From: Halalkalicoccus tibetensis
Lineage (GTDB): Archaea; Halobacteriota; Halobacteria; Halobacteriales; Halalkalicoccaceae
DNA: 64,000 nt
NCBI RefSeq assembly: GCF_037996645.1
Contig: NZ_JBBMXV010000003.1
Span: forward strand, 372,001 to 436,000
Reading direction: 5' to 3'
Positions 25,514 to 28,971 of this stretch are shown here, one piece after another. Below the pieces are notes generated by a model. It was given only the letters and a program-made list of their open reading frames with translations, ran no database searches and was not told where the DNA came from. The position numbers and the translations under genes were made by a program. Every line of letters starts with the position of its first letter. The first letter of the stretch is position 1.

Positions 25514-26755
25514 TCAGACGCCGGTCTCGTAGCGCAGGATGCCCGCGATCCCGCCGAAGGCGTCGTGGAGCTGCTCGCCCTTCTCGAAGTCCGTCGAGAT
25601 GAACTTGGGCTCGGTCCCGCGCTGTTCGGCGATCGCGATCAGGTGCTCGATCACGTCCTCGCGCTCTACGACCTCCGCCTCGGAACCGTCCTCGCAGGTG
25701 TGTTCGGGCGTCGAGTTGCGCTGGTCGACGACCTCGTACTCCTCGACGTCGCCACAGTCGTAGACGACGACGTCCTTGCGGAGGTCCTCGCTGATCAGCA
25801 GCCGGTCGACCGACCCCATCACGAGGTTCCGGCGGGTGGGCTCGAAGCCGTAGGTCGCGAGCCCGCCGTCGTGGAGCTGTTTGAAGAACTCCTCCATCTG
25901 GTTCTTGTCCTTCATCACCTCGGCGTCCGCCAGCGCCTCCTCGGCGGCGTCGACCAGGTCGTAGAGCCCCGACTCGTCGGTGTAGGAGACGTCGAACTTG
26001 CCCAGCACCTGGTCCTGGAGCTCGTGGTGGAGGTAGTCGCCGTCGAGGAACTCGTCCTTCGTCGGCGAGGGGCCGCCGACGAGGATACCCTCGAGGTCGT
26101 GGCGCTCGGGGACGAACAGGTCGTTGGCCATCCCCGCGACCTCCTGGTAGAAGTTGTCGATGGCCTCGAGGCGGAGCCGGGCGAAGCGCTGTGCGGACTG
26201 GCCACCCTTTCGCTGCTTGCCGGGTACGAGCGAGGAGGCGCTCTTGACGGGTTCGACGCGCTTGCCCCGGAGCCAGCCGACGTTGGCCTCCCGGCGGTCG
26301 AGGACGACCAGGCCGTACAGGCCCTGGTCGGCGAGCATGTGTTCGAGGGGTTCGGTCAGGAAGTCCGAATCGCAGTGATAGCGGAAGGACTCGACGGGCT
26401 GGGGCGGGCTCTCGAGCACCCGGGTGATCATCTCGGTCTGGCCGCCGCCCGAGTCGACCGCGCCCGAGAACAGCACCATCCCGTTCTCCGGCGGGAAGTT
26501 GCCGTAGTACTTCAGGCGGTCCTTGATGCTCGTCAGGGCGTCCTGGACGTTCGTTCGGGTCTGCTTTGACTTGATGTTCGACGCCTCGCTGTGCTCCTGG
26601 GTGACGTGGGCGGCCACGTCGGAGATCTGTCTGTCCTCGGGAACGTAGATCGTCACCAGCTGGGTGCCCGACCCCTCGAAGTCGTTGAGCTCCTCGATGA
26701 CCCGCCTGAACTCGTATTTCTTCCTGTCGGACTCCTCGATGTCCTGACCACTCAT
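25514..26755 (-). CDS. prf1: Archaeal peptide chain release factor aRF1
   Basis: A 413-residue class I release factor that reads all three stop codons and frees the finished protein on the ribosome. Decoding motifs in domain 1 are NIKS at 60-63 and the YxCxxxF motif YHCDSDF at 126-132; the catalytic GGQ lies at 184-186 (GGQSAQRFARLR). Domain 3 includes the YDCGDVEEYEVV strand and a mini-domain with Cys. A TATA-like TACTTA 26-31 bases upstream marks a start at 26755. A truncated paralogue lies immediately upstream. Confidence 0.96.
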   Translation of the reverse strand: MSGQDIEESDRKKYEFRRVIEELNDFEGSGTQLVTIYVPEDRQISDVAAHVTQEHSEASNIKSKQTRTNVQDALTSIKDRLKYYGNFPPENGMVLFSGAVDSGGGQTEMITRVLESPPQPVESFRYHCDSDFLTEPLEHMLADQGLYGLVVLDRREANVGWLRGKRVEPVKSASSLVPGKQRKGGQSAQRFARLRLEAIDNFYQEVAGMANDLFVPERHDLEGILVGGPSPTKDEFLDGDYLHHELQDQVLGKFDVSYTDESGLYDLVDAAEEALADAEVMKDKNQMEEFFKQLHDGGLATYGFEPTRRNLVMGSVDRLLISEDLRKDVVVYDCGDVEEYEVVDQRNSTPEHTCEDGSEAEVVEREDVIEHLIAIAEQRGTEPKFISTDFEKGEQLHDAFGGIAGILRYETGV

Positions 26756-26780
26756 TACCGTTTCTAGCCCCGCCAACCGG

Positions 26781-26786
26781 TAAGTA
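26781..26786 (-). promoter_or_regulatory. TATA-like element of prf1
   Basis: TACTTA on the minus strand, 26-31 bases before the prf1 ATG, in the 55-base gap after the paralogue gene. It suggests prf1 has its own promoter even if it is also read from argS. Confidence 0.45.
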
Positions 26787-26810
26787 CCCTTTGACCGGCC
26801 GTGTCCGCCC

Positions 26811-27191
26811 TCAGCCCGCGAGCAGCTCGCGATACGCCTCCGTGAGGAAGATCTCCTCACAGCTGTACCGAAACGTCCCGACGGACCGGGGCGGGCTCTC
26901 GAGGGTCGCCTCGATCCACTCGTCGTCGACCCGCCCGCAGAACAGCGCCATCCCGTTCTCGGGCGGCGTGTCGTACTCCGTGAGGCGGTCCTGCAGCCGG
27001 ACGAGCGCCCCCTCGACGTGCTGGCGACGTTCCTCCGACAGCTCCCCGGCCTCGGCGTGCTCGTCGCCCAGGAAGACGATCACCTCGTCGACGAGCCGCT
27101 CCGGGGGGACGTAGACCGACACCAGCCGCGGGTCGTCGGTCGAACACCGCCCGAGCCGGTCGAGGACGGCGTCCGGATCGTCGGGGTTCAT
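26811..27191 (-). CDS. Stand-alone aRF1 N-domain paralogue lacking NIKS
   Basis: A 126-residue protein that aligns along its whole length with domain 1 of the neighbouring aRF1: LVSVYVPPER / LVTIYVPEDR, DRLTEYDTPPENGMALFCG / DRLKYYGNFPPENGMVLFSG, and FRYSCEEIFLTE / FRYHCDSDFLTE. The NIKS stop-codon motif is replaced by GELS (49-52) and the GTQ motif is also gone, while YxCxxxF (YSCEEIF, 109-115) is kept. There is no GGQ or domain 3, so it cannot release peptides. Its role is unknown; it sits between argS and prf1. Confidence 0.85.
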   Translation of the reverse strand: MNPDDPDAVLDRLGRCSTDDPRLVSVYVPPERLVDEVIVFLGDEHAEAGELSEERRQHVEGALVRLQDRLTEYDTPPENGMALFCGRVDDEWIEATLESPPRSVGTFRYSCEEIFLTEAYRELLAG

Positions 27192-27231
27192 CGGACGTGA
27201 TACGTGAACAGCCGTCAAGGGTCTTGTGGCC

Positions 27232-28971
27232 TCACATCGACTCGGGTGCCTCGACCCCGAGCACCCACAGCGCGTTCGCGATCGTGTGGCGGGCGGCCGC
27301 CACGAGCGCGAGGCGAGCCTCGGTCAACGCCTCGTCGTCGGTGAGCACCTGGCACTCCCGGTAGAAGGCGTTGAACGTCTCGGCGAACTCGCGGGTGTAG
27401 GTGGCGACCTGGTGGGGCTGGCGGTCGCCGGCGGCGGACTCGACCACGGCAGGGAACCGGGCGATCACCTCGATCAGGTCGCGTTCCTCCTCGCTCTCGA
27501 GCAGCGCGGGATCGACCGCACCGGGCTCGCGATCGGCCTCGCTGAGGATCCCACACGTGCGTGCGTGGACGTACTGGACGTAGGGCGCCGACTGGGCCTC
27601 GAAGTTCAGCGCGCGATCCCACTCGAAGGTGATCGCCTTCGAGGGCTGTTTCGAGACGATGTCGTAGCGGACGGCGCCGATCCCGACCTGGCGGGCGATC
27701 CGCTCGACGTCGTCCTCGTCCAGGTCGTCGTCGCGGATCCGGTCGTCCATGCGGGTCTCGACCTCCTCTCGTGCGCGCGCGACCGCCTCGTCGAGCAGGT
27801 CGTCGAGGTCGATCCCCGTCCCCGCGCGCGTGCTCATCTTCCCTTCGGGGAGGTTGACGTAGGAGTAAAAGACCGAATCCAGCCGGTCGGTGTCGTTGCC
27901 CAGCAGGTCGAGCGCCGCCGCGAGCTGCTGGGCCTGGAGCTTGTGGTCCTCGCCGAGGACGGTGACGGCGCGGTCGTAGTTATCGAACTTCCACTCGTGG
28001 TGGGCCAGGTCGCGGGTCGTGTAGAGCGAGGTGCCGTCCGAGCGCAGGAAGACGAGGTTCTTCTCGAAGTCGGGCAGGTCGAGCTGCCAGGCCTCCTCCT
28101 CGTAGACGGCTTCGTCGAGGGCCTTGAGCCGCTCGACCAGGTCGTCGGTGCTGCCGTCCCGGATGAAGCGGGTCTCCTTGACGAACTCGTCGAACTCGGC
28201 TGGCAGGCGAGCGAGGGACTCGCGCATCCCGCCCAGCACCCTATCGACGACGCTGCCGACGCGCTCGTAGGCCTCCTCGTCGCCCTCCTCGAGGCCCTGC
28301 ATGATCGACTGGATCTCGGCCTCCGCGGCCTCGACCTCCTCCTCCGATCCTTCCTCCAGCACCCGGTTGCCCTTCCGGTAGTAGCGCACCAGCTCGTAGT
28401 CGCTCTTCTCGCGTTCGGGCTCGGGCAGGTCGTCCTCGTCGAACGTCTCGTAGGCCCAGGTGAACACCGCCATCTGCCGGCCGGCGTCGTTGACGTAGTA
28501 GTGGCGGTCGACGTCGTTGCCCGCGAAGTCGAGCAGGCGGGCGATCGCGTCGCCGATGATCGGGTTTCGCGCCCGGCCGACGTGGACCGGCCCCGTCGGA
28601 TTGGCGCTGGTGTGCTCGACGACGACCTCCCGCCCGGTGGGTTCAAGCCGGCCATAACCGTCCTCGCGGGCGGCCTCGAGGGTCCCCCCGTAGTAGGCGT
28701 CGCTCGCGTGGAAGTTGACGTACGGGCCCTGCTGGGTCGCGCCGGCGAGCAGCTCGTAGCCCTCGACCTCGATCGCGTCGACGAGGTCGGCGGCGACCGC
28801 CCCAGGGGCCTTTTCGGCCTCGCCAGCCAGCCGGAAGGCGACGCTCGAGGCCAGCACCGCCTCGACGTCTTCGGGGGGCTCTTCGATCGCGAGCTCGGCC
28901 GTCGGAAGCGAGAGCGCCGAGAGCGCCTCCGAAAGCGCGTCTTCGGCGTCCGCACGAAGCGCGAGGAACAT
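27232..28971 (-). CDS. argS: Arginyl-tRNA synthetase
   Basis: A 579-residue class I aminoacyl-tRNA synthetase charging tRNA-Arg with arginine. The HIGH-type motif reads HVGR in [18 protein letters not shown], and the KMSKS region reads [11 protein letters not shown]. The Arg-specific DALR anticodon-binding domain forms the C-terminus ([28 protein letters not shown], given here as a region). The gene leads a same-strand group argS, aRF1 N-domain paralogue, prf1. Confidence 0.95.

Follow-up and report, generated by a model that had tools for sequence, protein, structure and literature searches.

Between argS and prf1 in the haloarchaeon Halalkalicoccus tibetensis, a short open reading frame encodes a protein that resembles a single domain of the archaeal release factor aRF1. 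This raises the question of whether the protein, termed P126 here, still takes part in stop-codon decoding, is decaying, or has been retained for another purpose. The gene was analysed within a stretch of 64,000 nucleotides, referred to as the window, to which all coordinates below refer.

The P126 gene and its neighbours

The three genes are arranged on the minus strand in the order argS (28971-27232), P126 (27191-26811) and prf1 (26755-25514).

27232..28971, minus strand: argS, the upstream neighbour of P126 on the same strand, with the same position in genus relatives
26811..27191, minus strand: P126, a stand-alone aRF1 domain-1 paralogue, recognised by its open reading frame, its homology to aRF1 and purifying selection relative to the copy in a related genome, G244
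26811..27218, minus strand: a possible longer form of P126 with a TTG start (135 aa), proposed from upstream codons kept in the G244 copy
25514..26755, minus strand: prf1, a complete aRF1 of 413 aa with GTQ, NIKS, YxCxxxF, GGQ and domain 3

Read from its ATG, the P126 frame encodes 126 amino acids with no internal stops. Nine in-frame codons 5' of this ATG (LTAVHVSRP, from the TTG at 27218) match MPTAHVSRS in the G244 copy and are largely conserved, in part through synonymous changes. This conservation makes a start at the TTG, located 13 bp past the argS stop, plausible, and the protein may therefore comprise 135 amino acids.

Homology to domain 1 of aRF1

P126 aligned over nearly its full length with domain 1 of the adjoining prf1 product (41-44% identity, E 3e-22). 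A search of the whole genome with P126 returned three places, namely P126 itself, prf1 domain 1 (44%) and a 363-aa protein on contig C4, whose domain 1 is 34% identical (E 7e-12). Against solved structures, phmmer gave significant matches only to domain 1 of aRF1/eRF1, the best being 4AF1 (E 4e-22). Residues 17-124 of P126, which align with residues 28-142 of the 4AF1 chain, retain the core and the PPENGM and FRY segments of this domain (domain N of eRF1); P126 differs from it in consisting of a single domain, in having lost GTQ and NIKS and in its unconstrained tip. The low E-values exclude chance as the source of the likeness.

The NCBIfam aRF1 model TIGR03676 matched residues 9-124 (E 2e-21) with 76 bits, which is below the curated threshold of 234.7 bits for the aRF1 family because two domains are missing, while Pfam eRF1_1 gave no score at all on P126. 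The C-terminus of P126 coincides with the boundary of aRF1 domain 1, so that domains 2 and 3 are missing entirely. As in eRF1 domain-1 homologues, the alignment spans the whole domain and the core positions are kept. Class-1 release factors have three domains, including a GGQ-bearing domain 2 and a domain 3, of which P126 contains domain 1 only, and the catalytic-type RF-PH domain of the VLRF-1 and baeRF-1 paralogues is absent from it. P126 is a real gene with a narrow distribution, derived from aRF1 and comprising domain 1 only, and it is not a release factor. The original prediction of a stand-alone, 126-residue aRF1 domain-1 paralogue without GGQ or domain 3 was thus borne out. An AF2 model built from a three-row alignment had a mean pLDDT of 49, too poor for fold comparison.

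Loss of NIKS and GTQ and of the decoding tip

Two segments of P126 correspond to regions used by aRF1 in decoding.

27003..27065, minus strand: the former decoding tip, residues 43-63 (DEHAEAGELSEERRQHVEGAL), equivalent to the TASNIKS region of aRF1
26847..26867, minus strand: YSCEEIF, residues 109-115, equivalent to YxCxxxF in the alignment with aRF1

Among the decoding motifs of release factors, P126 has lost NIKS and GTQ and kept YxCxxxF. In the alignment, GTQ is replaced by DPR, and NIKS appears as E-L-gap-S, giving an acidic loop that is one residue shorter and without the lysine. The absence of GTQ and the presence of YSCEEIF agree with what had been read from the sequence at the outset; the replacement of NIKS by GELS, also proposed then, was right in substance as a loss but misaligned by one residue.

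In both P126 copies, the tip plus the helix after it has a net charge of -6, compared with +2 in aRF1. Between P126 and the G244 copy, the tip (helix-NIKS-helix) is identical at 5 of 21 positions and the remainder at 64 of 88 (Fisher p 7e-5), a contrast that is strong and not final, since the region was picked after viewing the alignment and the two available P126 sequences include one that ends at residue 109. Pairs of aRF1 sequences behave in the opposite way, the tip being their best-conserved part (22/22, with 98/112 in the remainder).

Positions invariant in aRF1 were further sorted by their retention in NIKS-less VLRF-like paralogues, those shared with these paralogues being considered structural and those restricted to NIKS-bearing proteins being considered decoding positions. 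P126 retains 18 of 23 structural and 6 of 14 decoding positions, and the corresponding values for the G244 copy are 14/19 and 1/13. Among the structural positions are the Y and F of YxCxxxF. As these residues persist in relatives without NIKS, their retention is structural and offers no argument for decoding by P126, contrary to the weight first given to the motif; the G244 copy ends ahead of its C. At more than 10 aRF1-invariant positions, both P126 copies carry the same new residue, as expected under a changed function. Taken from these comparisons, selection on P126 appears to spare the fold and not the decoding tip.

Distribution

Wide conservation, named initially as a sign of function, was not observed. 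P126 is carried by two of the seven genomes examined in the genus, the window species and the metagenome-assembled G244, and by no other of about 390 haloarchaeal genomes. The G244 copy (contig JADFQH010000184.1) is 63% identical over residues 1-109, up to the contig end, and lies downstream of argS in the same gene order as in the window. On the G244 contig C52 (L053:1-520), the 5' contig end fuses an unrelated, putatively TrkA-C-like coding sequence in frame to prf1 codon 19. This junction is probably an assembly chimera, and because of it the adjacency of P126 and prf1 is hidden in G244. The five remaining genus members (G060, G196, G218, G135 and G203) have no P126; their argS-prf1 gaps measure 82 to about 267 bp, and no P126 remnants were found in them.

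When 394 genomes of the class were searched, the window's own genome alone reached E 1e-26. In 244 genomes searched with a cut-off of E 1e-6, where a genome gave several hits, those ranked second and third lay in frames of at least 350 codons. When 90 genomes of the phylum were scanned with Pfam eRF1_1, there was no convincing stand-alone domain 1 among the matches listed, a weak result because the model misses P126 itself. The literature searched contained no report of an aRF1 domain 1 encoded on its own.

Selection on P126

The gene had also been considered as a possible decaying duplicate, to be recognised by absence from related species, frequent frameshifts or a lack of purifying selection. 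The first of these signs is present and the other two are not. The two P126 copies differ by substitutions and a single in-frame 3-bp indel, with no stop or frameshift in either. Counting by NG86 gave a pN/pS of 0.556 (95% 0.376-0.831), and a codon model allowing for the GC-rich codon usage gave an omega of 0.145 (profile range about 0.06-0.29; 2dlnL 31 against omega 1). Both approaches reject neutral drift since the two carrier species diverged, so P126 is not plainly a decaying duplicate. The proposal of a duplicated and reused domain 1 is supported. Constraint is nevertheless weaker than on the neighbours, dN/dS under the same codon model being 0.145 for P126, 0.038 for argS and 0.018 for prf1. 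Codon choice at residues shared by P126 and prf1 gave no clear sign of gene conversion between them.

Origin and transcriptional context

In the phylogenetic tree, P126 forms a long branch inside the clade of haloarchaeal aRF1 proteins (100/99), and a topology that groups it with the aRF1 of its own genus is not rejected (p-AU 0.47). The argS-prf1 neighbourhood recurs across several haloarchaeal families. Since this arrangement is ancestral, a tandem copy of prf1 would land there by default, and the position of P126, initially cited in favour of a role in translation, says little about its function. A viral or plasmid origin of P126 was considered and rejected: viral contigs and phage records contained no relatives, and the plasmid matches are longer aRF1-like genes annotated as prf1.

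A conserved block is located between P126 and prf1.

26756..26796, minus strand: GGTCAAAGGGTACTTACCGG...GGGCTA, immediately before the ATG of prf1, kept in six genus species

This block is probably a leaderless promoter of prf1. Five of the six species with the block have no P126, and in the window it lies downstream of P126. Its presence with and without P126 suggests that prf1 is probably transcribed from a promoter of its own and that P126 is probably read together with argS. No RNA element was found, and a scan for sigma-70-type promoters and terminators, which is ill-suited to archaea, gave nothing.

Possible functions of P126

The interpretation that we favour, with about an even chance of being correct, is that P126 is a recent copy of aRF1 domain 1 that is confined to one lineage and has taken on a new function, being retained as a folded binding module and not as a codon reader. 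Such a protein would have arisen by partial duplication of prf1 next to its parent, would be transcribed with argS and would take the aRF1 domain 1 fold. Binding would occur through the conserved side of the beta-sheet and the C-terminal segment, not through the tip, with RLVSVYVPPE, PPENGMALFCGR.D.EWIE and PP.SV..FRY as candidate segments. A first guess at the partner would be a protein involved in translation, for example ArgRS or aRF1 itself. A more specific version, which we regard as rather doubtful, is that P126 newly evolved from the aRF1 decoding domain when selection swapped the codon-reading tip for a conserved partner-binding face (for ArgRS, aRF1 or the small subunit), and that, within a single haloarchaeal lineage, it adjusts termination or the supply of arginyl-tRNA.

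P126 could also be a weakly selected relic, i.e., a partial prf1 duplicate that is folded and expressed with argS, has little function and is heading for loss. Its absence from five of the six other genus members and from all other haloarchaea sampled, its long branch in the tree and a protein that changes faster than the products of the neighbouring genes are all consistent with this explanation. We nonetheless consider it unlikely, given that the codon model rejects neutrality, that the frames are intact in both copies apart from the in-frame indel, and that the protein ends cleanly at the domain boundary.

The proposal that P126 competes with aRF1 at the A site, made when the gene was first noted, belongs to a wider possibility in which the protein attaches to the small subunit at the site used by aRF1 domain 1, and there slows termination, sits on idle ribosomes or aids rescue. 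In eRF1, stop-codon recognition in the A site is the task of domain N (PMC4482090), the fold positions of P126 are kept, and the Y, C and F of YxCxxxF are all present in the window species. Against this, the tip is unconserved, acidic and devoid of the NIKS lysine, and the identity contrast and the charge reversal described above disfavour competition in particular; P126 also lacks a domain 2 or 3 for delivery by a GTPase or contact with the large subunit, and relatives without NIKS keep the same Y and F. A ligand of the decoding centre is a distinctly improbable reading. Less probable still is that P126 is the domain 1 that remains, next to argS, of a displaced or imported aRF1, either foreign or older and degenerate, and is not a copy of the present prf1. 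Genome G132 provides the precedent, with a derivative lacking NIKS and domain 2 at the same argS-side place and a complete, divergent aRF1 elsewhere, and this derivative groups with P126 in the tree with weak support (58/86). That grouping, however, links long branches and is flagged as unreliable, and the window prf1 has kept its position and shares 93-95% identity with that of most genus mates.

Related aRF1 variants

The favoured reading, a neofunctionalised domain-1 copy, can be compared with other aRF1 derivatives. The baeRF-1 and VLRF-1 clades are likewise specialised aeRF-1 paralogues, some of them domain-reduced, and the reduced members described by Burroughs and Aravind (2019) keep the RF-PH domain and lose the stop-codon domain (PMC6514570). 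P126 shows the reverse, having the decoding domain only and no RF-PH, and would represent the converse case at an early stage, in a small lineage where the probable parent gene lies alongside. If true, it would illustrate how a domain of a translation factor is freed for another use; its general weight is modest, given the narrow range and putative function.

Haloarchaeal VLRF-like paralogues are also related to aRF1, have lost NIKS and keep the Y and F of YxCxxxF, but differ from P126 in having three domains and in belonging to another clade. An example in the window's genome is the 363-aa protein of contig C4 (L003:772-1863, minus strand), an aRF1-like protein of three domains that lacks NIKS and GGQ, the one with 34% identity to P126; relatives of it were observed in most species of the genus.

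In G132, the gene beside argS (L054:1728-2594, minus strand) encodes domains 1 and 3 only, the GGQ-bearing domain 2 being absent, with NIKS and YxCxxxF altered, and a divergent complete aRF1 with NIKS and GGQ is encoded on another contig (L055:2833-4095, plus strand), an apparent replacement of the housekeeping aRF1. This derivative resembles P126 in its aRF1 origin, its position adjoining argS and the loss of NIKS and GTQ, but it keeps domain 3, and prf1 was displaced there and not duplicated. A second aRF1-like gene was also identified in some haloarchaea, and the copy in G053 (L056:843-1985, minus strand) retains NIKS and GGQ. Copies annotated as prf1 are present on large Haladaptatus and Halomicrobium plasmids (NZ_CP085329.1, NZ_CP111042.1, NZ_CP085302.1 and NZ_CP084091.1).
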